Assembly (NCBI GenBank): GCA_016194935.1
Contig: JACQAO010000028.1
Location: 1 to 64,000 of the forward strand
Direction: 5' to 3'
DNA from: Betaproteobacteria bacterium
GTDB lineage: Bacteria > Pseudomonadota > Gammaproteobacteria > Burkholderiales > Rhodocyclaceae
Length of the DNA stretch: 64,000 nt
In this document: positions 6,401 through 64,000 of the stretch, piece after piece
How positions within the stretch are numbered: position 1 is the first letter of the stretch
How the letters are laid out: every line of letters starts with the position of its first letter
Notes under the pieces: generated by a model
The model's database searches: none
Told to the model about the DNA's origin: nothing
The model's input: the letters and a program-made list of their open reading frames with translations, nothing else
Made by a program: the position numbers and the translations under genes

Positions 6401-6574
6401 CTGTTCCGGCGATGCGCCGGGATAGGTGATGGAAATGAATGCGATGGGATTGCTGACATCCGGCATCTGCTCGACCGGCAGGCGGTTATAGGACACGATG
6501 CCCAGCACCAATAGCGCCAGCATCACCATGGTGGCGAAAACCGGTTGATTGATACTGATGCGGGTAATCCACAT
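3452..6574 (-). CDS. RND efflux transporter permease (HAE1 type)
   Basis: A 1040-residue inner-membrane proton antiporter of the RND superfamily. The start MWITRISINQPVFATMVM and the porter motif YPGASPEQVE are typical. The proton-relay LLIDDAIVVREN lies near residue 400, and the partner Lys lies in LMGLVTKNAILL in the C-terminal half. Two large periplasmic loops follow TM1 and TM7 as expected. It lies one base after its adaptor gene (6576-7775) in the same orientation, so the two form an efflux pair. No outer-membrane channel gene is adjacent, so a TolC-like protein from elsewhere is presumably used. The substrate cannot be read from the sequence. It is a paralogue of the permease at 9182-12388. 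Confidence 0.93.
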   Translation of the reverse strand: MWITRISINQPVFATMVMLALLVLGIVSYNRLPVEQMPDVSNPIAFISITYPGASPEQVENDLLKPMENVVNTVNGVKRIYSTARESVGFIQAEFRLSTDMAAATQEIRDKIAQIRPNFPREAKDPLVSRADWDQRQPVVNLAVVSDQHDLRELSTITDQVIVKRLQNAPGVGNVAMNGGVVRQIQIYLKPGQMQAYGIGVDQVINAIQAENQDFPAGSISSGAAEQLVRVDGKIRNPQGFGKIIVARQAGAPVYLNQVAQVVDGEQEETSLSRINGQRAIGVDVFKVQDANIVEVGDGVKQALEDLKKRLPAGVEIKTINSVADSVKSSLDNVKATILEGALLTVFIVFLFLHSWRSTVITGLTLPISVIATFIALYAFHFTLNFLTLMALSLCIGLLIDDAIVVRENIVRHLGMGKNHYQAARDGTEEIGLAVMATTFAIVAVFIPVAFMSGIVGRYFFQFGMTVAVAVLVSLFVSFTLDPMLSSVWHDPAAARFKRLPWLGSLMERIEHGVERVHTLYGAMLAWALTHRIKVLLIALASFLGSFLIVPLVGTEFIPETDQGFISLRLNTPIGASLEYTDAKIRQVEDALKAFPEIALTQTTVGTDDGKNYARINLKLSDRKLVQRRSQKELEQAIRIRLASIAGIKLSLGWNPPIFISILGPDAARLTAISRDLMKRIAAIKGITDLESSERGANPTLAVHIDHDLASDLGLNTAQIGRTLRPLIAGDTISHWEGPDGQNYDVNVRLPKSERRIAADLGDLYITSSRTNADGTPRMAALRQVAEFVPTFSAQQVKRLDLQRRVSLYANVEGRPAGDVGKEVQDLLGKLEPQLPPGYRLIVSGDTEAMNDAFSAAMSALGMAIIFIYLILASQFGSFLQPIAIMASLPLALIGVFLALLVTHTTLNLFSIIGFIMLMGLVTKNAILLVDFINKGVREGKPQHQAILDAGQVRLRPILMTTLAMIFGMLPMALGLGDGGETQAPMGRAVIGGVITSTLLTLIVVPVITTYLDNLTTRFKQRRARRTLQAQSAHATGDKP

Positions 6575-48332: not shown

Positions 48333-48775
48333 ATGGAGATATCAAGAGCGGCCCTGTGGGGTACTATCATCTATGTGCTGGCTACGGTACCTGTCTTGGC
48401 TCAACCCGCGGAGAAATTCAAAATTGGGGTCATCCTGCCGTTTAGCGGTCCTTACGCTATCGCCGGTGAGGTGGCAAAACAGGCCATGGCGCTGGCGCTT
48501 GAAGATCGCGGCGGTAAGGTGCTCGGCGTGCTGATCGAAGTGGTGTGGGAAGACGGCGAAGCCAAGCCGCAAGCTGCGATCCAGAAGGCAACAAAGGCGT
48601 TGGCCAACGGAGCTCATATCCTGCTCGGCGAGGCGAGTTCGCACGCCACTCTCGCGCTGATGAAGCTCGCCGTTCAACGCAGGACGTTGCTGCTCAACTC
48701 AATATTGTTTCGGCCGATGACCGCATCACCGGCGCAGATAGCAATCGCTACACCTTCCGCACTTCTATGTCCTAG
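48333..48775 (+). pseudogene. Truncated, frameshifted ABC substrate-binding protein gene
   Basis: The first 120 or so codons encode a signal peptide and the N-terminal lobe of a LivJ-like binding protein (FKIGVILPFSGPYAIAGE, ILLGEASSHATLALM). Near 48700 the frame breaks. Family-like sequence (VSADDRITGADSNRYTFRTS) then continues in another frame until a stop at 48773-48775. About two thirds of the expected protein, and all transporter subunits, are missing. The next plus-strand gene is the LuxR regulator, so a deletion probably joined the two. It keeps a good GGGAGGA site, so a short product could still be made. Confidence 0.8.
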
Positions 48776-48898: not shown

Positions 48899-51592
48899 AT
48901 GGCGAAGGCCGATCATCTTCGGTCCGACAAGCGCCCGCCGTCGGTGCTCGAGACCAAGCTGTTCCCGCCCCGCCATTCGCGGCATGTCATCGCGCGGTTG
49001 TGCTTTGATCGATTTCCGGAGGAGCTTGCCCGGCACCGGGTCATCGTCATCCGAGCACCTGCGGGGTTCGGTAAAACAGTGATGGCCGTACAGTTCGCCG
49101 CGCGACTTGAGGCAAGCGGGGTCAAGCTCGGCTGGGTTTCGCTCGATGCCCACGACAATGACCCATCGCGTCTCTTGCATCTGCTGGTCGCCGCCGCAGC
49201 CAAATTTGCGCCCGGCATCACCGAGGCGGTCAGCGGACCGATGGCGGCGGGTGCACTGTTGCCGCCTGTCGCCGTGCTGACGCCGCTGCTCAACGCCATC
49301 GGCGCGGCGACAGGCGATATGCTGTTGGTGCTCGACGATTTGCATGAATTGGTTGCCCCCGCCGCCTTTGGCTGCATCGATTTTATCCTGAGCAACCTGC
49401 CGGACAATCTGGCTTGCGTGATTACGAGCCGCAGCGATCTGCCGTTTCCGGTCAGCCGCCTGCAAGCGGAAGGCATGGTTGGTCGGCTTGGACCTGAGGA
49501 TTTGCAGTTTTCCATTGAGGAGACCCGTGAATTCTTGACCCAACGTCATGCGTTGTCCTTGAGCGCGGCCGATCTGGCCGCGTTGCATCGACGGACCGAA
49601 GGTTGGGCAGCGGCGCTGCAGCTTGCGGCCTTGTCGCTCTCACGCCAAGTTGACCCCTCGGCCTTCATCGCCACCTTGTCGGCACCCAGCGCCGGGATGG
49701 TCGACTACCTCTGCGAGAACGTGCTCAACGCGCTGCCGGTCCGTCCCGCCGATTTCCTGTTACGGGCCTCGGCATTCGCCCGCATGGGCGGCAAATTCTG
49801 CGATGCCGCGCTCGAGATCGACGACAGCGGCGCAATTTTGCAGTCGCTCGAGCATGCCAATATGTTGATCCAGCCAGTTGGGGATGACGGGCAATGGTAC
49901 CGGCTGCACGGGCTGCTCGCCGACTTCCTTGAGGCGCGGTTGCGGCGCGAGCGACCAGCGGAACTGCCTATGCTGTTCGCGCGTGCCGCCGCCTGGTGCG
50001 AGACGCATGAGCTGCTCGACGAGGCGGTCGACTATTATCTGGCCGCACTCGATTTCGCCGCCGTCGAACGGATTCTCGCCCGTGTTGGCTGGCGTCATCT
50101 CGCCCATGGCGAATTCCATCGGCTCCGCCAATGGCTCGAGAAGCTGCCGGACGCGATCCTGCGCACCCGTCCGACACTTTGCATGCTGCATGCCTGGTGC
50201 CTGATCTATCCGGCCGAGTTCGCCAAGGCCGAACTGCGCATACTCGAAACCGAGCAGGAGCTGAAGCGGCGCCAGGTCGGTAAGCCGATCGATGATGCCA
50301 CTATCGCCCTACAGCGCGCCGAGCTACAAGTGGTGCGCGCGATGCTGCATCAACTGCGCGACGACGCGCCCGACATCGACAGCTATTCCCTGCGCCTGCG
50401 CGAGGCGATTCCCGAGGACAATCCGTTCATGCTGGGGATGATTGAGCTGACCACCGCGTTTTATTTCCGGGCGCGCGGCGAATATGAAAAAACCCTGCGC
50501 CCGCTCGAGCTTGCCATCGAGTATGCCGAGGCCGGCGGCGGCATGCTGCTCAATACGCTGGCGCGCATCAGCATCGGGGTAGCCTGGTTTCAGCTTGGCC
50601 ACAGCATCAAAGCGACCGAAATATTTCAGGTGTTGCTCCACGACATGCACTTAGGCGGCTGGGAAGGTCATGTGCTGGCCGGCATGGCCCAAGTCCGCTT
50701 TGCGCAGGTACTGTACGAGCGCAACGAACTTGCCGAGGCCGCCGCCCACGTCGCGCAGGCAATCAGGGTCAGCGAAGCGCAGAGCGGCGGCGCGGTGCAT
50801 GGCATGGCGCTGGTCGAGCGGGCGCGAATCGCACTCGCCCGCGGCGATCGCGATGCTGCCGCCAGCGATGTTCGCGCCGCCAAGCAGATCGGTCGGAGCC
50901 ATGGCGTGCGGCGCGTTCAGGCCGCAGCGATTGCGATGCAGGTAACGATGGCGCTCCGCGATCACAGTCTCGGTCGTGCCGAAGCGTTGCTCGAGGATCT
51001 AGCAGCGTTACAGAGCGCGCCGCTGCGCCACCTGAGCGAAGCCATCAACCGTCTGCAATTGCTGCGGGCCAGCCTGGCCCTGGCCCGCCATCAATATTCC
51101 CAATGCCTGCGCTTTGCTGGTGAGGTACTGCAGAACAGCCGCGAGACCGGCTGTGCCGGCCGTGTCGTCGAGGCGCTAGTCTTGCAGGCCTGCGCCTGGG
51201 CCGGCCTCAAGGCGGAGCTAAAAGCGCGGCAGAAATTCGAGGCCGCTGCTGATCGGGCGGCGGCGGCAGGGTTCGCGCGGTCGATACTCGATATTACTCT
51301 GACCCATGCGTTGCCGACCGGAGTGATGCCGAAACGGGCTGACGAACCTGTCGCACCACGACCGGCGCCGAGCACACCCGATGCCGGCCTCGATATCCAG
51401 TTGTCGGATCGCGAGATTCAGTTGATGCGGCTGCTGGCGGCCGGCCACCGCAACCGGGAGATCGGAGCGATGATGGCGATCACCGAACAGACGGTGAAAT
51501 GGCATCTGAAGAACATTTACGCCAAGATCGACGTGAATACGCGCACCAAGGCGATTGCCCGGCTGCGTGCGACCGGACTCATCGCCGGCTGA
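48899..51592 (+). CDS. Large MalT/LuxR-type (LAL) transcriptional regulator
   Basis: An 897-residue ATP-dependent regulator. The N-terminal NTPase has Walker A APAGFGKT at 53-60 and Walker B LLVLDDLHE. A long helical, TPR-like middle probably binds the inducer. The C-terminal LuxR helix-turn-helix (LSDREIQLMRLLAAGHRNREIG, EQTVKWHLKNIYAKI) covers about 830-890. The ATG at 48899 has GAGGGAG before it; a start 16 codons earlier does not. It precedes the thiolase-to-E1 operon by 96 bases and is its likely activator, sensing a substrate or CoA ester. Confidence 0.9.
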   Translation: MAKADHLRSDKRPPSVLETKLFPPRHSRHVIARLCFDRFPEELARHRVIVIRAPAGFGKTVMAVQFAARLEASGVKLGWVSLDAHDNDPSRLLHLLVAAAAKFAPGITEAVSGPMAAGALLPPVAVLTPLLNAIGAATGDMLLVLDDLHELVAPAAFGCIDFILSNLPDNLACVITSRSDLPFPVSRLQAEGMVGRLGPEDLQFSIEETREFLTQRHALSLSAADLAALHRRTEGWAAALQLAALSLSRQVDPSAFIATLSAPSAGMVDYLCENVLNALPVRPADFLLRASAFARMGGKFCDAALEIDDSGAILQSLEHANMLIQPVGDDGQWYRLHGLLADFLEARLRRERPAELPMLFARAAAWCETHELLDEAVDYYLAALDFAAVERILARVGWRHLAHGEFHRLRQWLEKLPDAILRTRPTLCMLHAWCLIYPAEFAKAELRILETEQELKRRQVGKPIDDATIALQRAELQVVRAMLHQLRDDAPDIDSYSLRLREAIPEDNPFMLGMIELTTAFYFRARGEYEKTLRPLELAIEYAEAGGGMLLNTLARISIGVAWFQLGHSIKATEIFQVLLHDMHLGGWEGHVLAGMAQVRFAQVLYERNELAEAAAHVAQAIRVSEAQSGGAVHGMALVERARIALARGDRDAAASDVRAAKQIGRSHGVRRVQAAAIAMQVTMALRDHSLGRAEALLEDLAALQSAPLRHLSEAINRLQLLRASLALARHQYSQCLRFAGEVLQNSRETGCAGRVVEALVLQACAWAGLKAELKARQKFEAAADRAAAAGFARSILDITLTHALPTGVMPKRADEPVAPRPAPSTPDAGLDIQLSDREIQLMRLLAAGHRNREIGAMMAITEQTVKWHLKNIYAKIDVNTRTKAIARLRATGLIAG

Positions 51593-51688
51593 ACATCAAA
51601 GCCCCGCTTCCGGGGGGTGCCACGCCCAGGGTCGTTCGCTAAGCTTTCCCCATAAGCCGCTGAACGGCTACTGCGGGGGAGCAAAGGC

Positions 51689-52936
51689 ATGAGCAAGACC
51701 GGCATATTCGTCCTGGGCGTCGGCATGACGCCGTTCGGCAAGTTTCCGGACCAATCTGTAAAGCACCTGACCGCAGCAGCGGTCGGTCATGCGCTCGAGG
51801 ATGCCACTGCGGCAGTCGGCGACGTCGAGGCGGCCTATTTCGCCAATGTCTCCCAAGGGGCGCTGGAAGGCCAGCACGCGGTGCCGGGCCAAATCGCGTT
51901 GCGCAGCTGCGGTTTTCAGCATATCCCGATTGCCAACGTGGAGAATGCCTGCGCCAGCGGCAGCACCGCGCTCTATCTTGCCGTCAATCACCTGCTCGCC
52001 GGACAGGCCGAGGTGGCGATGGCGGTCGGCGTCGAGAAGATGTACCGGGCCGACCGCGCCCAGACCTTTGCCCTGTTTCGTGGCGGCTGGGACGTTCATG
52101 ACGACGGCCGGCTGATGGCCGAATTGCGCCGCCACAGCGCCGGAACGCCGGTACCTGCGAGCATAGTGTCACCGGACGGTACACGCAGCGAATTCATGGA
52201 GATATACGCTGCGCTGGCCAAGAACCATATGAAGATGTTCGGCTTGACTCAGCGTCAGCTCGCCACGGTTGCTGCCAAGAACCATTTTCACTCGACCTTC
52301 AATCCGCTCTCGCAATATACCCACGATACCTCCGTCGACGAGGTGCTGGCCGCACGGCTGGTTGACTGGCCCATCACCTTGCCGATGTGCTCACCGATCA
52401 GCGACGGTGCGGCTGCGGTGATCTTGTGTACCCGCGAAGGCCTGCACCGCTTTCCTAATGCGCGTCCGGTGGCGCTCGAGGCCATCGTACTTCGCAGCGG
52501 CAGCGATCGCTCGCTCGACGAGTATGACCGTCATGCCTGTCGCCTTGCGGCGCAGGAAGCCTATGAGATCGCCGGGATCGGGCCGGGCGACATATCGGTG
52601 GCCGAGGTGCATGACGCGACCGCGATGGGCGAAATCATTCAGATCGAGAATCTCGGCCTCTGCGAGATCGGCGAGGCCGGGCGCTACAGCGAAACCGGCG
52701 CCACCAGGCTAGGCGGTCGTATTCCGGTCAATCCGTCCGGCGGCCTGGAATCGAAAGGCCACCCACTCGGAGCGACCGGCTTGGCGCAAATCGTCGAGCT
52801 CTCGACCCAGCTGCGCGGCGAAGCGGGCGGTCGCCAGGTCGCTGCTGCCCGCTTCGCGATCGCCGAGAACGGCGGCGGTTTTGCCGGTTTCGAGGAGGCA
52901 TCAGTTGTCATTACTATTCTCGGGAGAGCCGCATGA
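51689..52936 (+). CDS. SCP2-type thiolase family protein
   Basis: A 415-residue thiolase of the sterol-carrier-protein-x/lipid-transfer type. The acyl-accepting Cys is in VENACASGS near residue 90, the His in VAEVHDATAMGE near 310, and SKGHPLGATG follows. The second Cys of classical thiolases is replaced by the Gly-rich AENGGGF, as usual in this subgroup. A GGGGGAG precedes the ATG. It overlaps the acyl-CoA ligase gene by four bases. Such enzymes often cleave branched or side-chain 3-oxoacyl-CoA, as in steroid degradation. Confidence 0.88.
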   Translation: MSKTGIFVLGVGMTPFGKFPDQSVKHLTAAAVGHALEDATAAVGDVEAAYFANVSQGALEGQHAVPGQIALRSCGFQHIPIANVENACASGSTALYLAVNHLLAGQAEVAMAVGVEKMYRADRAQTFALFRGGWDVHDDGRLMAELRRHSAGTPVPASIVSPDGTRSEFMEIYAALAKNHMKMFGLTQRQLATVAAKNHFHSTFNPLSQYTHDTSVDEVLAARLVDWPITLPMCSPISDGAAAVILCTREGLHRFPNARPVALEAIVLRSGSDRSLDEYDRHACRLAAQEAYEIAGIGPGDISVAEVHDATAMGEIIQIENLGLCEIGEAGRYSETGATRLGGRIPVNPSGGLESKGHPLGATGLAQIVELSTQLRGEAGGRQVAAARFAIAENGGGFAGFEEASVVITILGRAA

Positions 52937-54483
52937 GCATCGTCGCCTTCCTCGATCAGAGCTCGGTCCGCTTTCCCGAACGCACCGCCTTTGTCCATAA
53001 CGAGCGCAGTTCGAGCTATCGCGAATTCAGCGCCTTGAGCTGCCGCATTGCCGGCGCCCTGACCCGCGACGGGACGGCGACTGGAGCAAAGATCGCGATT
53101 TACGCGCCGAACGACCTGGTCGGCTTTTGCTGCACCTTCGGCGCACTCAGGATGGGCGGCGTCTGGGTGCCGGTGAATGCCCGCGGCTCGCTCGCCGACA
53201 ACATTGCACTGTTGCAGGACAGCGATTGCGAAGTGCTGTTCTATCATTCGACCTTCGAGCAACACGTCGACCGCATTCGCACCGAGGTCGGCTCACTGCG
53301 ACAGTTCATCTGCATCGACCGGCCGGGCGCGACGGCGCCGGCCTTGGCCGATTGGTTGGCCGAAATCCCGGCAACGATCACGCTGGTCGAGCTACCGGCC
53401 GAGGCGCCCTGCCTGATGGTTGGCACCGGCGGCACCACCGGCCGGCCAAAAATAGTCGAACTATCGCGGCGCAATCTTGACATGCTGTTCGCCAGCTACT
53501 ATTTGCTGCTGCCGTCAAGCGAGCCACAGGTGTTTCTGGCGGCGACGCCGCTGACCCATGCCGCCGGAGTCCAGTGCATGCCGGCGCTGGGCCAGGGCGG
53601 CAAGGTCATCATTCTCGATTCCTTCGAACCTGTTGCGGTGATGCGGGCGATCGAACTCCACCGCGTCACCACGCTGTTCCTGCCGCCGACCGCAATCTAC
53701 GCCTTGCTCGCTCATCCTGATGTGCGGTATCACGACTATCGCTCGCTGCGATATTTCCTCTATGGCGCCTCGCCGATGTCGGTCGACAAGCTGAAGGAAG
53801 CGGTCGCCGTGTTCGGTCCGGTGATGACTCAGCTTTACGGCCAGACCGAAGCGCCGGTGTTCTGTAGCGTGCTGCATCCCCTAGACCATGCCCAGGATGG
53901 CGATGGCGACTGGGAGCGGCGGCTCGCCAGTGCCGGGCGAGTCTCGCCGTTCATGCAGGTCGAGATCATGGACGACGACGGCCGTCTGCTGGCGCTGGGC
54001 GAGCCCGGCGAGATCGTGGTGCGCGGCGATCTGGTGATGACCGGCTATTACCGCAACCCCGAGGCCACCGCTGCCGCATCGACGTTCGGCTGGCATCACA
54101 CCGGCGACATCGGGATCAAAAGCGAAGACGGCCTGATCCATATCGTCGACCGCAAGAAGGACATGATCATTACTGGCGGTTTCAATGTCTATCCTTCCGA
54201 GGTCGAGCAGACGATCTGGTCACATCCGGCCGTGCAGGACTGCGCCGTGATCGGCGTACCCGACGATAAATGGGGTGAGGCGGTCAAGGCGGTTGTGGAG
54301 CTGAAGCCGGGTGCGAGCGTCGAACCCGGCGACCTGATCGCGCTGTGCAAGGATCGCCTGGGCAGCGTCAAAGCTCCCAAGAGCATCGAAATTTGGGACA
54401 GCCTGCCACGCAGTCCCGTCGGCAAGGTGCTGAAGCGCGACGTGCGCGAACGCTTCTGGCAGGGCGTCAAGCGGCGGATCTGA
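52933..54483 (+). CDS. AMP-forming acyl-CoA ligase
   Basis: A 516-residue adenylate-forming enzyme. The P-loop TGGTTGRPK is near residues 165-173. LYGQTEAP, HTGDIGIKSEDG, DRKKDMIITGGFNVYPSEVE and the C-terminal catalytic Lys in SPVGKVLKRD are all present. It should activate a carboxylic acid as its CoA thioester. The ATGA overlap with the thiolase gene indicates coupled translation. The acid is not deducible; medium-length or cyclic acids would fit the operon. Confidence 0.9.
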   Translation: MSIVAFLDQSSVRFPERTAFVHNERSSSYREFSALSCRIAGALTRDGTATGAKIAIYAPNDLVGFCCTFGALRMGGVWVPVNARGSLADNIALLQDSDCEVLFYHSTFEQHVDRIRTEVGSLRQFICIDRPGATAPALADWLAEIPATITLVELPAEAPCLMVGTGGTTGRPKIVELSRRNLDMLFASYYLLLPSSEPQVFLAATPLTHAAGVQCMPALGQGGKVIILDSFEPVAVMRAIELHRVTTLFLPPTAIYALLAHPDVRYHDYRSLRYFLYGASPMSVDKLKEAVAVFGPVMTQLYGQTEAPVFCSVLHPLDHAQDGDGDWERRLASAGRVSPFMQVEIMDDDGRLLALGEPGEIVVRGDLVMTGYYRNPEATAAASTFGWHHTGDIGIKSEDGLIHIVDRKKDMIITGGFNVYPSEVEQTIWSHPAVQDCAVIGVPDDKWGEAVKAVVELKPGASVEPGDLIALCKDRLGSVKAPKSIEIWDSLPRSPVGKVLKRDVRERFWQGVKRRI

Positions 54484-54541
54484 GAGCCGCTCGCTCCCAA
54501 CATCATTGCCTGAATTATTTTGGATAAGGGGAAGAATACAC

Positions 54542-55261
54542 ATGAATCTGAAAAACCAGCATGTCATCGTGATTGGCGGGGCCAGTGGAATCGGCTATGA
54601 GATCGCCAAGGCGGCGCAGGCGGAAGGCGCCAAAGTGACGATAGGCGGGCGTAATCGCGCGGCGCTCGATCACGCTTTGGAAACCCTCGGCAACGGCGTC
54701 GTCGGAGAGATGATCGACGTCACCCGGCCGGATCTGGTCAATGGATTTTTCTCGAAAATAGATAAAGTAGATCATATCGCCATCACGGCCGCCCACTTGG
54801 AGGGCGCCGGTGCGTTGAGTCAAATGGCCGAGAGCGACTTGCGGCTACAGGTAGACGTCCGCCTGATGGGGGCGACTCATGTAATACGTGCCGCCGCGCC
54901 GAAATTATCTCCCCTCTCTTCCGTCACCTTGACTTCCGGCCTGGCTGTTTCCAAGCCGCTCCCGAACGAAGCACTGGGCGCTGCCGCGGCTGCTGCACTG
55001 GAGTGCCTGGCGCGTACGCTGGCCGTTGAAATGGCTCCGGTTCGATTCAACGTAGTCGCTCCTGGCATGTGCGATACGGGTTTCCTGCACCGGTTTCTTG
55101 GCGCGCAGGGCGACGCAATCATTTCCCATGTCGCTTCGAGCCTTCCCGTGAGGCGGATTGGAACACCGGAAGAAGTGGCGCAAGCCTATTTGTTTCTGAT
55201 GAAGATGGGATACATAACGGGGGAAACGCTGCATATCGACGGTGGCCATCGTTTGATCTGA
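54542..55261 (+). CDS. SDR-family protein lacking the catalytic Tyr and Lys
   Basis: A 239-residue Rossmann-fold SDR. The nucleotide motif IGGASGIGYEIA and the C-terminal GETLHIDGGH are good. The expected YxxxK is absent: after TSGLAVSKP the sequence runs NEALGAAAAAALECLARTLAVEM, with Gly or Leu at Tyr and Ala at Lys. Similar Tyr/Lys-less SDRs exist in other bacteria and may use another mechanism or act without redox chemistry. AGGGGAAG precedes the ATG at 54542. It lies 58 bases after the ligase in the same operon. Confidence 0.85.
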   Translation: MNLKNQHVIVIGGASGIGYEIAKAAQAEGAKVTIGGRNRAALDHALETLGNGVVGEMIDVTRPDLVNGFFSKIDKVDHIAITAAHLEGAGALSQMAESDLRLQVDVRLMGATHVIRAAAPKLSPLSSVTLTSGLAVSKPLPNEALGAAAAAALECLARTLAVEMAPVRFNVVAPGMCDTGFLHRFLGAQGDAIISHVASSLPVRRIGTPEEVAQAYLFLMKMGYITGETLHIDGGHRLI

Positions 55262-55313
55262 CCGAGTATCGATGGTCTTGTGGGTAAGCATTAATTTACT
55301 GGAGGGGGAGGAA

Positions 55314-57116
55314 ATGAAGAACGCGAAGAAGGGAGTGAACGTACGGTCGGGTTTTCGGCGCCGCGTCATCGCGGCAGCCGTTGTATCGTCGTTGAGCGCT
55401 TGGAGCGCGGCGCATGCCGTGGACTTCGATACGGGCAATCAAGACTTGGCCGTGCGTTGGGACAACACGTTGAGGTATAACTACGCCTATCGAGTACAGG
55501 AGCAGAACCCGAATATTCTTGCCAGCCCCAACTTTGACGACGGAGATCGAAATTTCAACAAGGGGACCGTAGCGAATCGCATTGACCTCCTGTCGGAGTT
55601 CGATTTTGTCTACCGTAAAGTCAACGGCTTCCGCGTCAGCGCCGCCGCTTGGTACGACAATGCCTACGGCCAGCTAGACAATACTAGCGTTGCGAGTTCT
55701 AACCACATGGTCGGCGGCGCACCGGCACTCGGCTTGGGCGACACCGCAAGACGATTCCTCAAGGGACCTTCCGGCGAAATTCTCGATGCCTTCGTGTTTG
55801 GCCAGACAGAGCTAGGGGGCAGACCGCTCAATCTAAAGGTGGGACGGCATACCTTGGTTTGGGGCGAGTCCCTGCTTTCACCGCTACATGGGGTTAACTA
55901 CGGACAGAGTCCGCTGGATTTTCGCAAAGGACTTGCCGTGCCCGGCGTGGAAGCGAAAGAAGTGTTTCTGCCGCGAAACGCCATTTCAGCCCAACTTCTA
56001 GCCACGCCGGAGCTGGCGTTAGCCGCGCAGTACTTTCTCGAATGGAAGCCGATACGCATACCCGAGGCGGGATCCTACCTCGGCGCATTCGATATGCTGC
56101 TGGACGGAGGAGAATCAATCATCGCCGGACCTGGACAGCGACTCCTGCGTGGCACCGATGTAAAACCGAAAAATAGTGGTGACTGGGGGCTATCAGGGCG
56201 CTGGAGCCCATGGTGGTTGGAAGGCACACTAGGTATGTATTACCGCAAGACTTCCGATATTCAGCCGCAAATCCATATCCAGCCGGGAGCAGCGGCATTA
56301 CCGGCGGCGATCTGCAATGCCTTGGGCTTCACCAGTTTGAATGCTTCAACCTGCCACATCAATCCCTCGGCGGCCAGCATCCCGCAGATATTGAATGGCA
56401 ACGTAGGCCAGTATTACGAGATTTATCCGAGCAACATCGACATCCTCGGCATCAGCCTCTCCAAGAGTGTCGCCGGGGTCAGCGTCGGGGCCGATCTAAA
56501 CTATCGCAGGAACATGCCCCTCAACAGCGATCCGGTGCTGATTCTTCCGGCGGCGCTTGCAGCGATGACGCCGGGCGCAATCAGCGCGCTGCCCACGCAA
56601 GGGAAGACGGGCGGAGCAGTCGGCGATACCTGGCATGGCGTGGTCAACCTACTGGGGACCGTAGCAAAGACGCAACTCTTCGACACGGCGAGTTGGCTCG
56701 CCGAACTGCAATGGAATCACTGGAGCAAGGTTACCCAGGGTTCGGACGTATTCCAGGGCCGTGACTCTTACACAGGCATTGACAAGGTAAGCAAGAATTT
56801 CGTTGGACTGTCCATCAACTTCACGCCTACCTGGTATCAGGTGTATCCCGGTATCGATGTGCAACTGCCGATTGCCTATTCCGTCGGGCTGTCGGGTACC
56901 TCTGCCGTTGCTTCCGGTGGATGGAAGGATGCAGGTAGCTTTTCCATAGGTGTCGGTGCCGATATCGACCAAAAGCACCGTATCGACCTGAGTTACGTTG
57001 GCTACTTCGGGCCATTCGCGACCAACGCCATGGGGCAGATCACTTCGAGCAGGGGAATCACCCCCCTGCTCAAGGATCGCGGTTTTGTATCCCTAACCCT
57101 CAAGACGACATTCTGA
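55314..57116 (+). CDS. DUF1302 family outer-membrane protein
   Basis: A 600-residue exported protein with a signal peptide (basic start, hydrophobic VIAAAVVSSLSAWSAAHA) and the DUF1302 opening VDFDTGNQDLAVRWDNTLRYNYAYRVQ. The repeated Gly/aromatic strands and the Phe end suggest a large beta-barrel, which is the usual view of this family. A strong GGAGGGGGAGGA precedes the ATG. DUF1302 and DUF1329 genes are nearly always adjacent and recur beside catabolic clusters for hydrophobic compounds, where a transport role is suspected. Confidence 0.9.
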   Translation: MKNAKKGVNVRSGFRRRVIAAAVVSSLSAWSAAHAVDFDTGNQDLAVRWDNTLRYNYAYRVQEQNPNILASPNFDDGDRNFNKGTVANRIDLLSEFDFVYRKVNGFRVSAAAWYDNAYGQLDNTSVASSNHMVGGAPALGLGDTARRFLKGPSGEILDAFVFGQTELGGRPLNLKVGRHTLVWGESLLSPLHGVNYGQSPLDFRKGLAVPGVEAKEVFLPRNAISAQLLATPELALAAQYFLEWKPIRIPEAGSYLGAFDMLLDGGESIIAGPGQRLLRGTDVKPKNSGDWGLSGRWSPWWLEGTLGMYYRKTSDIQPQIHIQPGAAALPAAICNALGFTSLNASTCHINPSAASIPQILNGNVGQYYEIYPSNIDILGISLSKSVAGVSVGADLNYRRNMPLNSDPVLILPAALAAMTPGAISALPTQGKTGGAVGDTWHGVVNLLGTVAKTQLFDTASWLAELQWNHWSKVTQGSDVFQGRDSYTGIDKVSKNFVGLSINFTPTWYQVYPGIDVQLPIAYSVGLSGTSAVASGGWKDAGSFSIGVGADIDQKHRIDLSYVGYFGPFATNAMGQITSSRGITPLLKDRGFVSLTLKTTF

Positions 57117-57129
57117 TAAGGAGTACAGC

Positions 57130-58494
57130 ATGCAATACCTGAAATCCTTGATTGCGGCCGCGTTAAGCATTGCCTTTACAAGCACGGCATTGGCTGCGGT
57201 GACCGCCCAAGAAGCACAGCAATTGGGAAAGAACCTCACACCGACCGGCGCAGAAAAAGCCGGCAATGCAGACGGCACGATTCCGGAATGGACCGGTGGA
57301 TTGACGACGCCACCTGCTGGTTTTCAGGAAAACTCGCTCAAACTCATCGACCCGTACGGGAGCGAAAAGCCGCGGCTCAGCATCACGTCCAAGGACATAG
57401 CGGCAAACGCGGACAAGCTCACCGAGGGAACGAAGCAACTGTTGAGACGTTACCCGACGATGCGTGTCGATGTATACCCGACGCATCGTCCCATCCATTT
57501 TCCGTTGCGCATCATCGAGAACACCAAGAAGAACGCCTTTGTATCCAAGACCACCGATGGCGGCGAAGGCATCGAGAACGTCATGCCCGGCTATCCATTT
57601 CCGATTCCGAAAACCGGTTACGAGGTAATGTGGAATCACCTGCTTAATTATCGTGGCCTCGGTTGGAGCGCCAGATTTGACTCGTATAACGTCGGTTCTG
57701 ACGGCAAGGCATGGCTTGCCACGACTGGCGATGCCACGTATGCCTGGCCGATGTACGACCCGAAAAAGACCGGCTTTCTAAAAGAGACAGAATCCCACTG
57801 GAAGGTCAAAGTTGTTTATGTCGCTCCCGCGCGCCGTGCGGGTGAAGCATTCGTGGTGTGGGACTACCCCAACGCGCTGAAGCAAGTTCGCCGCGCGTGG
57901 CAATACCTGCCGGGCCAACGTCGCGTCAAGCTCGCGCCGGAAATAGCCTACGACACGCCGAACCCGCAAACGGCGGGCACAGCCACCTACGACGATGCAT
58001 CGGTGTTCAACGGTGCGATGGACCGCTTCGACTTCAAACTTGTCGGCAAGAAAGAGATGTACATCCCTTACGACAACTATAAGTACACCTACTTCGCACT
58101 GCCGGCCGAAGTCACCAAGCCGGGCCACATCAACCCCGACATGGTGCGTTGGGAGCTACACCGTGTCTGGGTAGTGGAGGCGACGCTGAAGCCGGGCAAG
58201 CGCCACATCTACAGCAAGCGGGTGTTTTATATCGACGAGGATAGTTGGGCAGCGGTGGCTTCGGACCAATACGACGCCCGCGGGCAGTTGTATCGCTCGA
58301 CATTTTCTTTCTCTACTTTTTCCTATGACGTTATGGCGCCGTTCTTCGACAGTTTTGCGAATTACGACTTCATTTCCGGGACGTACAACGTCAACGGCTT
58401 GTACGGCGCCCACGAAGGAATCAAGCACATGACTGAAATGCCCGGCGATGCGTTCTTTTCGCCCGAAGCACTTGCGGGAGCGGGTGTGCGCTGA
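57130..58494 (+). CDS. DUF1329 family periplasmic protein
   Basis: A 454-residue exported protein. A signal peptide (LIAAALSIAFTSTALA) precedes the family opening TAQEAQQLGKNLTPTGAEKAGN and GTIPEWTGG. The fold is thought to resemble LolB/LppX-like lipid carriers, which suits shuttling a hydrophobic molecule through the periplasm. It starts 13 bases after the DUF1302 gene, the usual partner. Confidence 0.9.
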   Translation: MQYLKSLIAAALSIAFTSTALAAVTAQEAQQLGKNLTPTGAEKAGNADGTIPEWTGGLTTPPAGFQENSLKLIDPYGSEKPRLSITSKDIAANADKLTEGTKQLLRRYPTMRVDVYPTHRPIHFPLRIIENTKKNAFVSKTTDGGEGIENVMPGYPFPIPKTGYEVMWNHLLNYRGLGWSARFDSYNVGSDGKAWLATTGDATYAWPMYDPKKTGFLKETESHWKVKVVYVAPARRAGEAFVVWDYPNALKQVRRAWQYLPGQRRVKLAPEIAYDTPNPQTAGTATYDDASVFNGAMDRFDFKLVGKKEMYIPYDNYKYTYFALPAEVTKPGHINPDMVRWELHRVWVVEATLKPGKRHIYSKRVFYIDEDSWAAVASDQYDARGQLYRSTFSFSTFSYDVMAPFFDSFANYDFISGTYNVNGLYGAHEGIKHMTEMPGDAFFSPEALAGAGVR

Positions 58495-58526
58495 AGTTAA
58501 GCGGCTGCGCACGCCATTTCGAAACG

Positions 58527-59606
58527 ATGAACGCCATACGTTCGGCTACTTTTGCTCTGTACGCAATGGGCGCGACAGCAGCCTTGTCGCCGGCTTGGGG
58601 AGCGATCTTCGTCGATCCGCTTGACGCGCCCGCACTGCTTTCGTCACTCGCGAGCAACAGTCTGTTACAGGCCGTGGTACGTGCTGGTGATCGCCTCGTC
58701 GCGGTCGGACAGCGGGGTCACATCGTCGTATCTCTGGATAGCGGAGCGTCATGGCGTCAGGTACCTGTGCCGGTAAGCGTCGATCTTACTGCGGTGTTCT
58801 TCGTCAACTCGGAGCGCGGCTGGGCGGTGGGTCATGATGGCGTTATCCTCCATACAACTGACGGTGGCGACCATTGGAAATTGCAGCTCGACGGACGCCA
58901 GGCGAACCAACTCTTGGTGACTGCCATGAGGCGTAAACTTGTACTCGAACCCGGGTCGGATGAGGCCCGGCGCCTACTCGCCGAAGCGGTACGTTACCAG
59001 GCGCAGGGTCCGGACAAGCCGTTTCTCGACGTCTGGTTTGCCGATGCGCGGACAGGCTACGCGGTAGGCGCCTACAATCTTATCTTTCGCACTCAGGATG
59101 GCGGCAAGAACTGGCTACCCTGGTTCGACCGCACCGAGAACCCGAAATTCTTCAATCTATATTCAATCCGACCGGGGCCGGATGGCCTGTATATCGTCGG
59201 CGAAGGGGGTGTGGTGCTGAAACTCGACCCGGTCGCGTTGAAGTTCAAGGCGCTGCCGGTACCATACAAAGGCAGCTTCTTTGGGGTCGTTAACGCCAAC
59301 TTGGCTGTGCTGGTTTTCGGTCTGCGCGGCAACGTGTTTCGCAGCGAGGACGGCGGCAGGACATGGGCCAAGATCGATGTCGGTCTGCCGGTGAGCATCG
59401 TCGGCGCCACGACGAACGCGCAGGGCACGGTGACGCTGGTCGACCTCGGGGGGCGCGCCGTGACGAGCGCTGATGGTGGCCGTACGTTTGCGCGACTACC
59501 GATCAAGAACCCGCTGCCGGCAACGGGCATCGTCGACGCGGGCGGCGGTAAATTGGTGCTGGTCGGATTGCGCGGCGTCATTGTCGCCGATACGGCGGCG
59601 CGCTAG
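58527..59606 (+). CDS. YCF48/BNR-like periplasmic beta-propeller protein
   Basis: A 359-residue protein with a signal peptide (about residues 1-26) and repeats of the form GWAVGHDGVILHTTDGGDHW, GYAVGAYNLIFRTQDGGKNW and GNVFRSEDGGRTW, the Asp-box pattern of YCF48-like propellers. Its usual genomic partners, DUF1302, DUF1329 and an MMPL/RND gene, are all here. It may act as an assembly or docking factor for the transporter; no activity is established. Confidence 0.88.
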   Translation: MNAIRSATFALYAMGATAALSPAWGAIFVDPLDAPALLSSLASNSLLQAVVRAGDRLVAVGQRGHIVVSLDSGASWRQVPVPVSVDLTAVFFVNSERGWAVGHDGVILHTTDGGDHWKLQLDGRQANQLLVTAMRRKLVLEPGSDEARRLLAEAVRYQAQGPDKPFLDVWFADARTGYAVGAYNLIFRTQDGGKNWLPWFDRTENPKFFNLYSIRPGPDGLYIVGEGGVVLKLDPVALKFKALPVPYKGSFFGVVNANLAVLVFGLRGNVFRSEDGGRTWAKIDVGLPVSIVGATTNAQGTVTLVDLGGRAVTSADGGRTFARLPIKNPLPATGIVDAGGGKLVLVGLRGVIVADTAAR

Positions 59607-59636
59607 CGCGACCCTGCCCTTACATCGACTATCGCG

Positions 59637-62084
59637 ATGGCAGACATCTCCGACGATCCCGACCATATGCCGGTGGTTCGCGAACTGCACTCTTTCGACA
59701 AGAGTTCCGGAAACCCGCTGGAGCGGCTGGTATTCAACAACCGCCTGCTAGTGGTGCTCGCCTGCGCGGTCATTACGCTGCTTCTCGGCTACGCTGCGGC
59801 GACGAAGCTCGTGCTCAACGCCAGCTTCGAGAAGATGATTCCGCAGAGTCAATCCTACATAAAGAACTACCTAACGTACCAGAAGGATCTGCGTGGCCTG
59901 GGGAATGCGCTGCGGGTGGTGGTCGAGAATGTCGATGGCGATATCTACGATCCGCGATTCCTGGAGGTGCTCAAGCAGGTTAACGACGAACTCATCTTGA
60001 CTCCCGGCGTGGATCGCGCCTGGGTCAAGTCGCTGTGGACACCGGCGGTGCGCTGGACCGAGGTGACAGAGGAAGGTTTTACCGGCGGTCCGGTGATGCC
60101 AGGCGCCTACGACGGTTCGACGAAAAGTGTGGAGCAGCTCAGGCAGAACATCGCGCGCGCCGGACTGGTTGGCAGTCTCGTCGCCAACAATTTCAAGTCG
60201 AGCATGATCTTCGTCCCGTTACTCGATAATGAGGCCGGTTCCGGCAAGCGCCTCGATTACCACAAACTGTCGCGTTCCCTCGAAGACAAGATTCGCGCCA
60301 AGTATGAAACGACGGAGATCGCTGAAACCAAGCCTGCTGCAGCGGAAGCGCCACGCATCCGCATCCGCGTGATCGGCTTCGCCAAACTGGTGGGTGATCT
60401 GATCGACGGGCTGCACGAGGTGATGATGTATTTTGGCCTTTCCGCGCTGATTGCCACCGCCATCATGTACACCTACACCCGTTGCTTGCGCAGCTCGGTT
60501 CTGGTGATCGGCTGTTCGATTGTGGCGGTGTGCTGGCAATTGGGGCTGGTGGCGTTATTTGGCTTCAATCTCGACCCGTACTCGATTTTGGTGCCGTTCC
60601 TGGTTTTCGCCATCGGTGTCTCGCATGGCGCACAGAAGATGAACGGCATCATGCAGGACATCGGGCGTGGCACACACCGTCTGGTCGCGGCCCGCTATAC
60701 CTTTCGCCGCTTGTTCGTCGCCGGCGTTACCGCACTGCTGGCCGATGCGGTCGGATTCGCGGTATTGATGATGATCGATATTCCCGTGATCAGGGATCTC
60801 GCGATGACTGCCAGCATCGGAGTGACGGTTTTGATCTTTACGAATTTACTGCTGCTGCCCGTGCTGCTGTCATTTACCGGCGTAAGCGCCAGCGCAGCGG
60901 CACGCAGTTTGCGCGAGGAACGCGATGAAACCCGGGGCCATGGGCTGGGTAAGTTGTGGATCTTTCTCGATCGTTTCACCGGAAGACGCTGGGCTGTTGG
61001 CGCGCTGGGCGTGGCCGCGTTGCTCGCCATTGGCGGATTCGTGGTGAGCACCCACCTGAAGATCGGCGATCTCGATGCCGGTGCGCCGGAGTTGCGCCCG
61101 GATTCGCGCTACAACCGCGATAACGCCTACATTACCGCCAACTACGCGCTGTCGAGCGACCAGTTCGCGGTAATCGTCAAGACCGCCATGGAGGGATGCC
61201 TTAAGTACCGGACACTGGTTGAAGCTGATCGTCTGGCATGGACGTTGAAGCAACTGCCGGATGTGCAGACGACCGTCTCGCTCGCCGATTCCGCGCGGCA
61301 GATTACTTCCGGGTCATTCGAGGGTAGCCCGAAGTGGCTGACCATCAGCCGCAACCAGGATGTTCTGAACTACGCGGCACAACAGGCATCGGTTAACAAT
61401 CCGGACCTGTTCAACACGGAATGCTCGGTGATGCCGGTGATTGCCTATCTCGGTGACCACAAGGCCGAAACGCTCGAACAAGTGGTCAGGGCGTCCGAAT
61501 TGTTCGCCGAGCAGCACAATACCGCCGAGCGGCAGTTTTTGCTTGCCGCAGGCAGCGCGGGCATCGAGGCGGCGACCAACATCGTGGTGAAAAGGGCGTG
61601 GGCGCAGATGCTGGTCCTGGTCTATGTTGCGGTGATCGCGCTGTGCTTCGTCACCTTTCGTTCGTGGCGTGCGGTCGTCGTCGCGGTGACGCCGCTGATG
61701 ATTACCTCGATTCTGTGCGAAGCGCTGATGGTGGTGCTGGGCATCGGCGTCAAGGTGGCGACACTGCCGGTTATCGCGCTCGGCGTCGGCATCGGCGTCG
61801 ACTACGCGCTTTACCTCCTGTCGGTGCAACTGGCGCAGCAGCGCAGGGGATTGTCACTGGCCGAGGCTTACATGAAAGCCGTGCGGTTCACCGGCAAGGT
61901 GGTGGCGCTGGTCGGCGTAACCCTGGCCGCCGGCGTGATCACCTGGGCCTGGTCGCCGATCAAGTTCCAGGCGGACATGGGCATTCTTCTCGCCTTCATG
62001 TTCGTGTGGAACATGGTCGGCGCGTTGTTTCTCACGCCGGCCCTGTCGCATTTCTTGTTGAAGGAGGCGCCGGTACATGCGTGA
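59637..62084 (+). CDS. MMPL/RND-superfamily transporter
   Basis: An 815-residue membrane protein with two groups of transmembrane helices (TM1 near residues 38-58; clusters near 260-425 and 640-800) around large periplasmic loops. It is shorter than HAE1 pumps, in the MMPL or hydrophobe-exporter style. ALGVGIGVDYALYLLS near the end is the proton-relay region. It overlaps the next gene by eight bases. With DUF1302, DUF1329 and YCF48 it probably forms an envelope transport system for a lipid-like compound; the direction is not known. Confidence 0.9.
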   Translation: MADISDDPDHMPVVRELHSFDKSSGNPLERLVFNNRLLVVLACAVITLLLGYAAATKLVLNASFEKMIPQSQSYIKNYLTYQKDLRGLGNALRVVVENVDGDIYDPRFLEVLKQVNDELILTPGVDRAWVKSLWTPAVRWTEVTEEGFTGGPVMPGAYDGSTKSVEQLRQNIARAGLVGSLVANNFKSSMIFVPLLDNEAGSGKRLDYHKLSRSLEDKIRAKYETTEIAETKPAAAEAPRIRIRVIGFAKLVGDLIDGLHEVMMYFGLSALIATAIMYTYTRCLRSSVLVIGCSIVAVCWQLGLVALFGFNLDPYSILVPFLVFAIGVSHGAQKMNGIMQDIGRGTHRLVAARYTFRRLFVAGVTALLADAVGFAVLMMIDIPVIRDLAMTASIGVTVLIFTNLLLLPVLLSFTGVSASAAARSLREERDETRGHGLGKLWIFLDRFTGRRWAVGALGVAALLAIGGFVVSTHLKIGDLDAGAPELRPDSRYNRDNAYITANYALSSDQFAVIVKTAMEGCLKYRTLVEADRLAWTLKQLPDVQTTVSLADSARQITSGSFEGSPKWLTISRNQDVLNYAAQQASVNNPDLFNTECSVMPVIAYLGDHKAETLEQVVRASELFAEQHNTAERQFLLAAGSAGIEAATNIVVKRAWAQMLVLVYVAVIALCFVTFRSWRAVVVAVTPLMITSILCEALMVVLGIGVKVATLPVIALGVGIGVDYALYLLSVQLAQQRRGLSLAEAYMKAVRFTGKVVALVGVTLAAGVITWAWSPIKFQADMGILLAFMFVWNMVGALFLTPALSHFLLKEAPVHA

Positions 62085-62979
62085 GGATATCGAATTCAAA
62101 AGCAAGGGGGATATTTGCCGGGGATGGTTTTATCATCCGACGGGAAACCTCAAGGAAACTTGGCCGGCGATCGTCATGGCGCACGGCTTTTCCGCAGTCA
62201 AAGAGATGGATGTGCCGAAATTCGCCGAGGTCTTTGCCGCAGCGGGCTTTGCGGTGCTGCTGTTCGACTACCGCTTCTATGGGGCGTCGGAAGGCGAACC
62301 GCAGGGGCAACTGCACCCGGTGGAGCAACTGGAGGACTATCGTAGTGCACTGACCTACCTGTCGTTACGCCCCGAAGTCGATTCTTCGCGGCTCGGCGTT
62401 TGGGGTACCTCATTTTCCGGTGGCCATGTCCTGCATCTGGGTGCCTTCGACCGCCGCGTTAAATGCGTCGTGTCCCAAGTACCCGCGGTGGACATCTGGG
62501 AGAACTTCAATCGCTTGATGACACCGACCCAATTCGCGACGATGCACGAAATGATTGCGCAGACACGGGAAAAAGACTTCACGTCTGGCCATGCATCGGT
62601 CTTACCTGTCGTATCGAACGACGGGTCGCCCTGTCTGCTGCCGTCGCCCGGCGCTTACGAGCGGCTGACCGGGCTGGCGGCTACCGTCGCGCCGAGTTGG
62701 CGCAACGTGGCGACTCTGGACTCGTTCGAAAAAATTTCAGAGTACCGGCCGGCACTTTCGATCGAGCTGATCTCGCCGCGTCCATTGCTCATGATTGTTG
62801 CGGTCGAGGACTTGCTGACGCCGGCAGACCTGGCGCTCCAAGCCTATTCCAGGGCGCTGGAGCCCAAATCGCTGCTACTTCTCGATGCCAGCCACTACGA
62901 AGTCTACGACGATCCGTTCATCTTCAACAAAGCTTCACAGGCGGCCTGCGACTGGTTCAAGACATATCTGATTCGCTAA
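62077..62979 (+). CDS. Alpha/beta hydrolase, acetylxylan-esterase/dipeptidyl-peptidase-like fold
   Basis: A 300-residue hydrolase. The nucleophile is the first Ser of GTSFSGGH, the acid is in VAVEDLLTP and the His is in DASHYEVY. AHGFSAVKEMDV forms the oxyanion region. GGAGG precedes the ATG, which overlaps the transporter gene. It resembles XynC/DltD-like or YcjY-type uncharacterised hydrolases. In this operon it may cleave an ester, lactone or ring ketone intermediate. Confidence 0.85.
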   Translation: MREDIEFKSKGDICRGWFYHPTGNLKETWPAIVMAHGFSAVKEMDVPKFAEVFAAAGFAVLLFDYRFYGASEGEPQGQLHPVEQLEDYRSALTYLSLRPEVDSSRLGVWGTSFSGGHVLHLGAFDRRVKCVVSQVPAVDIWENFNRLMTPTQFATMHEMIAQTREKDFTSGHASVLPVVSNDGSPCLLPSPGAYERLTGLAATVAPSWRNVATLDSFEKISEYRPALSIELISPRPLLMIVAVEDLLTPADLALQAYSRALEPKSLLLLDASHYEVYDDPFIFNKASQAACDWFKTYLIR

Positions 62980-63003
62980 GCGACTTTACCAAGGAGGTTT
63001 TCG

Positions 63004-63675
63004 ATGTTCGCTATCAACCATGCTGCGACCGCACTCATTATCAAGCAGCGCTACCCAAAGGTGCCTTTGATGTGGCTGCTGCTGTCCGTGCAATTCGTGG
63101 AAATCTTGTGGGTGTTGTTCAACTATCTCGGTATCGAGCGTACTTCAACCGAAGCCGTGGTTAACACGGTGAGCGAAATACACCTGGAATACATGCCGTA
63201 TTCGCACTCGATTGCTTCGTCCCTGCTATTCGCATGGATAGCCTGGTTCATCATAGGAAAGCTGTACAAGCAACGTGATGCCGCAGTAGCCATAGCCATC
63301 GGGATTCTCTCGCATATTGTCCTGGATGTACTTACGCATACTCGGGACATATCGATCATTCCTTTTTTGCTGGATCAAAAAGTCGGCATCGGGCTTTACG
63401 CAATGCCCTTGGCGGCCTTCTTTGTCGAAACAGCCTACGGCCTGTTCTGTTGGTGGATATTTCGGGGCGGCAAGGCACTGCTCGTAACTATCCTGGTTTT
63501 TAACTTGAGCAATATTTCGTTCTTTTCCGAAGCGCTAAGAGGGCCTGAAGTGCTAATGGCTAACCACCCGATGTGGATAGTCACTGCGGTTGCGCTGCAA
63601 ATTGTCATTACCTTAGTTCTGGTTTGGCTATTTGCCAGGCCCGCTCCAGCCGCCACAGGTGCAACTGTCACATGA
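63004..63675 (+). CDS. YdjM-like inner-membrane metal-dependent hydrolase
   Basis: A 223-residue membrane protein with about six hydrophobic segments. The His/Asp motifs NHAATALI, PYSHSIASS and LSHIVLDVLTHTRD fit the YdjM (LexA-binding, membrane-bound hydrolase) family. AAGGAGG precedes the ATG. It is 24 bases after the hydrolase gene and seven before the E1-alpha gene, so it is part of the operon. Its function is not established. Confidence 0.75.
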   Translation: MFAINHAATALIIKQRYPKVPLMWLLLSVQFVEILWVLFNYLGIERTSTEAVVNTVSEIHLEYMPYSHSIASSLLFAWIAWFIIGKLYKQRDAAVAIAIGILSHIVLDVLTHTRDISIIPFLLDQKVGIGLYAMPLAAFFVETAYGLFCWWIFRGGKALLVTILVFNLSNISFFSEALRGPEVLMANHPMWIVTAVALQIVITLVLVWLFARPAPAATGATVT

Positions 63676-63682
63676 GGAACCG

Positions 63683-64000
63683 ATGCAAATCGAACTGAGC
63701 CAGCAGGAGCTGCTCTCGCTCCACCAGACCATGGTGCTGATTCGCCGCTCGGAAGAACGCTTGTCGCGGCTGTTTGCCGACGGCGAGGTACCCGGTTTCC
63801 TGCATTTATCCATCGGGCAGGAAGCGGTTCCGGCCGGCATCTGCGCCGCACTGCAAGCAGGGGACACTGTCGCTTCGAATCACCGCGGTCACGGTCATGC
63901 CCTCGCCAAGGGTGTCGAGTTGCGTGGGTTTTTCGCCGAGATCCTGGGACGGGAGGAAGGGCTTTGCCGCGGACGCGGTGGTTCGATCCACGTCGCCGAC
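63683..64000 (+). CDS. TPP-dependent dehydrogenase E1 alpha subunit (partial)
   Basis: The first 106 codons of an E1-alpha subunit of the pyruvate/branched-chain/acetoin dehydrogenase type, cut by the window end. HLSIGQEAVPAGICAAL, SNHRGHGHALAKG and GRGGSIHVAD are close to AcoA-like proteins. GAGGA lies before the ATG. The rest, and presumably the beta subunit and E2, lie beyond the window. It suggests the pathway passes through a 2-oxoacid, acetoin-like or diketone intermediate. Confidence 0.88.
   Translation, partial: MQIELSQQELLSLHQTMVLIRRSEERLSRLFADGEVPGFLHLSIGQEAVPAGICAALQAGDTVASNHRGHGHALAKGVELRGFFAEILGREEGLCRGRGGSIHVAD

Follow-up and report, generated by a model that had tools for sequence, protein, structure and literature searches.

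The window analyzed here, a 64,000-nucleotide stretch from a bacterium of the Rhodocyclaceae (positions 1 to 64,000 of contig JACQAO010000028.1), ends inside a run of 15 genes, all on the + strand, that extends from 48899 to 68626, 4.6 kb past the window edge at 64000 on a contig of 150,365 bases. We propose, with a probability of about 0.58, that this run belongs to a catabolic island of 20.9 kb inserted between msrA and pcaF, that it forms one operon composed of three modules, and that an AmeABCD-type quartet in it moves a hydrophobic compound. The first module would comprise a MalT-type LuxR regulator, an SCP2-type thiolase, a coenzyme A (CoA) ligase, and an atypical short-chain dehydrogenase/reductase (SDR). 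The second would combine the AmeABCD-type quartet with an alpha/beta hydrolase and a small membrane protein and would carry a hydrophobic compound through the envelope, and the third would consist of E1alpha, E1beta, and E2 with an enoyl-CoA hydratase (ECH) and an acyl-CoA dehydrogenase (ACAD), E3 presumably coming from the cell. Among the loci examined, no other unites all three modules; the operon most likely represents a novel assembly of modules that are known or recur elsewhere rather than a system of a new kind.

A first-pass annotation, made from the sequence alone, had described a catabolic operon of 15 kb in this part of the window. Its start at 48899 is the ATG of the LuxR gene, its coordinates are right, and the genes and domains that it named are all present on the + strand, but the feature is longer than supposed: past 64000, the same contig carries the rest of E1alpha, E1beta, ECH, E2, and ACAD. 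The genes follow one another in the order LuxR/MalT-type regulator, SCP2-type thiolase, CoA ligase, SDR, DUF1302-DUF1329-YCF48-MMPL, alpha/beta hydrolase, small membrane protein, E1alpha, E1beta, ECH, E2, and ACAD. With corrected starts, the intergenic gaps from the thiolase to the ACAD gene are -4, 58, 52, 13, 32, 30, -8, 24, 7, -8, -4, 4, and 17 bases; four neighboring pairs overlap and the largest gap is 58 bases, within the limit of 60 announced earlier, and 96 bases separate the LuxR and thiolase genes. The overlaps, and the recurring order of the quartet and of the E1-to-ACAD genes in other loci, mark the arrangement as more than a chance one. Promoter-like sites (3 versus 5.6 expected) and terminator-like sites (16 versus 14.3 expected) were uninformative. 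The G+C content per gene is 0.63-0.64 from LuxR to the ligase, 0.50-0.62 from the SDR to the membrane protein, 0.62-0.67 from E1alpha to ACAD, and 0.585-0.65 in nine flanking genes, blocks that are compatible with a mosaic but do not prove one.

Downstream of ACAD, pcaF and paaG lie on the opposite strand and are followed by paaN (phenylacetate genes), and msrA and pcaF are 20.9 kb apart (47881-68793). We sought paaN in seven genomes, matched it in five, and compared the loci of G001, G002, G003, and G660 (not G603). In G003, which grouping places in the same genus, paaN, paaG, pcaF, and msrA are neighbors, the pcaF and msrA matches being about 50 bases apart; in G660 these four genes also follow one another; there pcaF and msrA are separated by 772 bases, and the stretch stops just past msrA. 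In G002 paaG is followed by msrA and in G001 paaN directly by msrA, neither with a pcaF match between, and the spot is thus variable among relatives anyway. None of these four loci carries the operon at the msrA/paa spot. Because msrA stands beside phenylacetate genes without the operon in four relatives, at a distance that reaches 20.9 kb here, the run looks like a unit inserted into an older neighborhood. One shared insertion would make the whole run one unit, which supports the earlier claim of a single catabolic unit into which an envelope transport module is integrated.

The block starts, directly upstream of the LuxR gene, with a gene fragment (48333..48749, + strand) for a substrate-binding protein of an ATP-binding cassette (ABC) transporter of the branched-chain-amino-acid type; it covers about the first 110 of 370 positions of NF011933 (3.7e-5, far under the cut-off) and is probably a gene remnant that marks the border of the inserted block. 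A relationship of this fragment to the ABC protein that adjoins the E1-to-ACAD genes of Azospirillum was considered and dropped, no link being seen (best E 2.2). As to traces of an insertion event, the longest repeat common to both edge regions has 9 bases, as in shuffles (mean 8.6), and no tRNA was found in the window from 40000 to 64000 or in 60000-79999.

The regulator (48899..51592, 897 aa) is a LuxR-family protein of the large MalT/STAND type, matching GerE (6e-15), TPR_MalT (6.8e-20), and the MalT model NF003420 (2.4e-90, under the cut-off). It may control the operon, a prediction from gene position: in 8 of 20 related loci a LuxR gene stands directly upstream of the quartet, and in the window it stands before the thiolase gene. 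The P-loop PAGFGKT of the regulator and the motif GGTTGRPK of the ligase are visible by eye in the translations; strict patterns for both gave no match, and the pattern for the hydrolase matched a side site. Thiolases of the SCP2 type have a nucleophilic cysteine and a GHP histidine and lack the CxG cysteine of classical thiolases. In the thiolase of the operon (51689..52936, 415 aa), Cys88 and His358 are invariant in all ten aligned sequences, and the C-terminal motif reads ENGGG and lacks the second CxG cysteine, features that point to an SCP2-type enzyme. The protein resembles a type-1 SCP2-thiolase (best PDB match 6hsj), an acetoacetyl-CoA thiolase, and the benzoylsuccinyl-CoA thiolase subunit.

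At 1e-110 this thiolase was matched in 8 of 369 genomes of the class sample, the window genome included. Of 202 relatives, the loci of the best 80 were read with up to 10 kb of flank, several being cut short by contig ends; 16 held a ligase match and none held a quartet, E1, or E2 match at 1e-10. A thiolase with an adjoining ligase, at 47-60% identity, occurs in two Noviherbaspirillum loci, one Bordetella and one Cupriavidus locus, Azoarcus sp. KH32C, and a P. aeruginosa plasmid, and in the last two a quartet is also present about 13-15 kb from the pair. The AMP-forming acyl-CoA ligase itself (52933..54483, 516 aa; AMP-binding 5.9e-69) has a long-chain fatty acid ligase as its best model, under the cut-off. 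The SDR (54542..55261, 239 aa) is as unusual as had been claimed: it belongs to a subgroup without the YxxxK catalytic motif, which is missing in all six aligned relatives (picked from 140 plasmid records matched) and present in both canonical controls. In the PDB it comes nearest to 3uce and to 6nkm/6nkk, the latter being, we assume, MalC/PhqE-type enzymes. At 1e-35 the SDR was matched in 3 of 297 family genomes, the window genome among them, and at 1e-20 in the 140 plasmid records, from several phyla; the subgroup itself is therefore not rare.

The quartet consists of an AmeA-like DUF1302 outer-membrane protein (55314..57116, 600 aa; DUF1302 4e-112) with a signal-peptide-like N terminus by eye, an AmeB-like DUF1329 periplasmic protein (57130..58494, 454 aa; DUF1329 3.2e-135), an AmeC-like YCF48/BNR periplasmic protein (58527..59606, 359 aa; PSII_BNR 1.1e-19), and an AmeD-like MMPL transporter of the resistance-nodulation-division (RND) type (59637..62084, 815 aa; MMPL 5.3e-17), cellular places being assigned by family. 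The best NCBIfam model for the transporter is TIGR00921 (HAE3), at 3.5e-40 and 137.8 bits under a cut-off of 351.9, and for the 12 membrane spans with two large periplasmic loops expected of an AmeD-type protein, 21 overlapping peaks came out of a basic hydropathy scan, which are not a span count but whose spread fits the RND layout by eye. The order DUF1302, DUF1329, YCF48-like, RND matches the published AmeABCD-type definition (PMC6394551). The integration of a transport module, as the first-pass annotation saw it, thus stands, but its account of the quartet has to be revised: the four genes match the described AmeABCD, whose published role is export and detoxification (PMC6394551). Behind the quartet follow the alpha/beta hydrolase (62077..62979, 300 aa; Abhydrolase_1 5.5e-10; UilS-type lactonase model 5.4e-42, under the cut-off) and the small, YdjM-like membrane protein (63004..63675, 223 aa; PF04307 5.6e-5, under the cut-off).

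At 1e-180 or better, the MMPL protein was matched in 62 of 297 family genomes, the window genome included. In 20 loci taken from the 28 best other MMPL matches of this sample, the quartet is complete and in order in 18, the exceptions being one locus ended by a contig end and one without a DUF1329 match; in a separate set of 15 loci the order is kept in 10, the rest being incomplete, cut, or (one case) rearranged, and the P. aeruginosa LYT4 plasmid has a different quartet gene order. The E1-to-ACAD order occurs in none of the 15 and none of the 20 loci. In 8 of the 20, fewer than 400 bases separate DUF1302 from a LuxR match upstream of it; in three more the LuxR match is 2.9-6.5 kb upstream, with an intervening ligase match in two, and such a LuxR match was not seen in the other nine. 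The genes matched around the quartets differ from locus to locus. The nearest MMPL proteins (79% and 77%) are both on a large contig of G603. At L195:14329-19320 of that genome, a LuxR-linked quartet is followed by genes for a major facilitator superfamily protein, an SDR, and, as an unusual partner, a glycyl radical enzyme of 837 aa that resembles pyruvate formate-lyase. On pAZKH of KH32C (L163:1644-29962), a second quartet and a LuxR gene lie beside genes for 2-hydroxyacyl-CoA dehydratase, activase, DUF5938, ligase, and thiolase. Elsewhere in the window, frames of 1040 and 1068 aa (3452-6574 and 9182-12388) have MMPL-family matches and are probably ordinary RND efflux pumps.

The third module begins with E1alpha (63683..64666, in the window to 64000; TIGR03182 2.4e-92, under the cut-off) and continues past the window with E1beta (64659-65660), ECH (65657-66436), E2 (66441-67436; Pfam lipoyl and 2-oxoacid_dh domains), and ACAD (67454-68626). 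The thiamine pyrophosphate (TPP) motif GDG...NN of E1alpha, which agrees with the TPP-dependent E1 reported before, and the lipoyl ETDKV and catalytic HRVHDG motifs of E2 are intact, suggesting a TPP-dependent 2-oxoacid dehydrogenase with lipoyl and catalytic domains. Models and PDB matches of E1alpha and E1beta are E1 of the pyruvate dehydrogenase (PDH) and branched-chain types; E1beta is over the cut-off of the PDH E1beta subfamily model NF006667, and E1alpha and E2 are over none. In ACAD the classical glutamate is apparently replaced (alignment with a short-chain enzyme), and a glutamate stands at another position, which we take to be the one used by isovaleryl-type enzymes.

G456 shares all five genes in this order, as do plasmids of Azospirillum argentinense, Azospirillum sp. 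TSH58, Rhizobium sp. RCAM05350, Shinella sp. HZN7, and Rhizobium lusitanum. The plasmid loci mapped were 5 of the 12 best E1alpha-matching plasmid records and two further ones; the order is kept in all six mapped loci with E1alpha at 54% or more (some genes of RCAM05350 match in pieces) and was not found in the two with E1alpha at 45-47% (Thermus and Sphingobium). Identities to the other cassettes are 54-78% for E1alpha, E1beta, ECH, and ACAD and 38-58% for E2, with G456 at 58-78%. E1alpha was matched at 1e-108 in 1 of 398 phylum-sample genomes, the window genome itself, and at 1e-75 in 36 of 297 family genomes, with a close match only in G456 (67%) and 47% or less in the others. The E3-binding domain PF02817, present in the Azospirillum E2, was matched at 0.001 by neither the window genome's E2 nor that of G456; an E2 with lipoyl and catalytic domains and without this domain is found at L009:6442-7437 (window genome) and also at L161:14956-15969. 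At L213 (G461:C52), a different E1alpha/E1beta/E2 set directly adjoins a quartet without a DUF1329 match, a second, separate link between modules. The search for the same gene order proposed earlier thus returned the modules but, in the loci examined, not the whole order. A narrow search of the open-access literature brought up no description of the five-gene cassette; nor did the literature searched describe the combined order, by exact-word matching that other wordings would escape.

Building on the gene content and order, the absence of the block in relatives, the conserved modules, and the motifs, all directly observed, we predict the reactions, their order, the direction of transport, and the regulation. 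The hydrolase would open an ester or a lactone, and the ligase would convert the free acids to CoA esters. A 2-oxo acid would become an acyl-CoA through oxidative decarboxylation by E1/E2, and ACAD and then ECH would yield a 3-hydroxyacyl-CoA, which some dehydrogenase would oxidize to the 3-oxoacyl-CoA to be cleaved by the thiolase. The quartet would export excess substrate or intermediates, protecting the cell, or would aid substrate uptake. In KH32C, 2-oxoacid:acceptor oxidoreductase genes lie about 5 kb behind the quartet, a loose parallel to the 2-oxo acid theme. The first-pass annotation had argued that the enzyme mix fits no known pathway and that the substrate may be new; this does not follow, since each module occurs elsewhere and the chemistry is readable as a standard chain. 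Our best guess for the substrate, from the company of the modules, is a terpenoid or alicyclic compound, the entry enzyme being missing or different; fatty esters and aromatic compounds may be further candidates. We regard it as speculative that the cassette is an undescribed transferable segment that takes a ring-derived 2-oxo acid or acyloin to a 3-hydroxyacyl-CoA and that, together with the exporter and regulator, it forms a self-contained route for a terpenoid or alicyclic compound, in which the catalytically atypical SDR would perform a non-redox step.

Several points weigh against the proposed three-module operon and its chemistry. The 96 bases between the LuxR and thiolase genes could divide two units, and the SDR, without the canonical catalytic pair, may not be a 3-hydroxyacyl-CoA dehydrogenase. 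Aromatic degradation, too, can go with DUF1302 and DUF1329, which are present in a Zoogloea oleivorans cluster for phenol hydroxylase (PMC7012976), and the quartet therefore does not fix the substrate class. A ring-entry enzyme was not identified in the genome (90% complete), which has no cytochrome P450 match and no BadI over the cut-off: the search for BadI-like (MrcE) proteins gave 16 matches, the best at 141 of 467.6 bits, with the ECH of the operon at 121.6 and 0 of 14 control genomes positive. Mrc-type ring cleavage and P450 entry are thus unsupported. The lack of an E1/E3-binding domain in E2 makes assembly of the complex uncertain, the E3-like matches of the genome are all under the model cut-off, with the best one cut by a contig end, and the NF006667 match of E1beta leaves plain pyruvate possible as a substrate. 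The E1beta model and the E3 results slightly lowered our confidence in the proposal.

A more specific alternative is a terpenoid or alicyclic-ketone pathway, in which the hydrolase opens a ring-derived lactone or ester and the E1 cassette takes the opened chain; we hold it to be a tentative possibility. AmeABCD is part of monoterpene metabolism, and on plasmid p_2 of Rhizobium lusitanum (L234:15533-36180) the cassette lies among genes for a P450, a ferredoxin, an FAD-dependent oxidoreductase, a flavoprotein, SDRs, and an alpha/beta hydrolase, which could be a terpenoid or cyclic-ketone cluster. The best model for the flavoprotein is pentalenolactone D synthase (248.7 of 1100 bits), presumably a Baeyer-Villiger enzyme. 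Against this pathway, such a P450 neighborhood surrounds only one of the six cassettes (flanks up to about 10 kb), the window genome lacks P450 and BadI matches as described above, quartet neighbors vary by locus, and phenol hydroxylase can likewise accompany the DUF1302-DUF1329 pair, a case that slightly lowered our estimate.

That the operon serves a lipid or ester pathway like that of Pseudomonas putida on Tween 20, with the quartet handling fatty esters, the hydrolase acting as an esterase, and the ligase acting on fatty acids, appears unlikely. The long-chain model of the ligase fits this idea, and the DUF1302, DUF1329, periplasmic, and transporter proteins of P. putida are essential for growth on Tween 20 (PMC10866462); such a pathway would, however, leave no role for E1/E2 or the SCP2-type thiolase, and generic ligase models do not fix the substrate. 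Equally doubtful is that E1/E2 splits an acyloin or vicinal diketone, like acetoin dehydrogenase, the operon then serving diketone cleavage and not 2-oxo acid decarboxylation. The PDH- and branched-chain-type models do not separate these substrate classes, but ACAD and ECH in the same conserved cassette fit the passage of an acyl-CoA into beta-oxidation, by branched-chain logic.

We consider it improbable that the run comprises two or three separate, merely adjoining transcription units: the gap after LuxR, the G+C blocks, and the separate occurrence of the modules elsewhere would agree with this, and the short or overlapping junctions after the thiolase and the one shared insertion argue against it. 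Steroid side-chain or ring degradation is very improbable, for although the thiolase is of the SCP2 type and similar quartets are linked to steroid loci, no steroid-specific model was over its cut-off among the proteins of the run, and steroid-named matches were weak (229 of 750 bits for the ligase with steroid-24-oyl-CoA synthetase and 19 of 1400 for MMPL with the sterol transporter BstA).

The three-module operon places an AmeABCD-type exporter, which we found studied by deletion in one monoterpene degrader, beside a defined enzyme set, and with exporter and enzymes in one operon the substrate of the exporter becomes testable. It also points to a five-gene E1-to-ACAD cassette common to Alphaproteobacteria and the lineage of the window, and its mosaic makeup indicates that degradation operons can be assembled from ready modules.

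Among known systems, PP_0765, PP_0766, PP_2018, and PP_2019 of P. putida form a comparable set in which DUF1302 and DUF1329 proteins have a phenotype in common with a periplasmic protein and an efflux transporter, but they are split over two loci (judged by locus numbers) and concern Tween 20 (PMC10866462). Plasmid pAZKH of Azoarcus sp. KH32C has LuxR, ligase, and quartet in line (MMPL 72%), with a thiolase (55%) and a ligase (59%) about 14 kb off; these two form a separate cluster near DUF5938 and 2-hydroxyacyl-CoA dehydratase genes, and the stretches read carry no annotated E1-to-ACAD cassette and have the 2-oxoacid:acceptor oxidoreductase genes instead. The cassettes of Azospirillum, Rhizobium, Shinella, and G456 share the five genes and their order with the window. 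A ligase match follows in five of six, and these cassettes often lie near branched-chain-type ABC transporter genes, whereas here the cassette stands behind the quartet with no ligase after it, and the E2 of the window and of G456, unlike that of the Azospirillum cassette, lacks the E3-binding domain. The closest counterpart of the quartet is AmeABCD of Castellaniella defragrans, which is described as a conserved set of four genes that includes an HAE3-type RND protein and whose export role in monoterpene detoxification was deduced from a deletion mutant of strain 65Phen (PMC6394551). Compared by domains, order, and length, both systems hold DUF1302, DUF1329, a COG4447/photosystem-II-assembly-type protein, and an RND protein in the same order within a degradation locus, with lengths of 600/454/359/815 aa in the window and 605/451/316/787 aa in AmeABCD. 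The Castellaniella genes lie beside mrc ring-cleavage and geo genes (PMC4109377), whereas the quartet described here stands beside a LuxR regulator, a thiolase, a ligase, and the E1-to-ACAD cassette.

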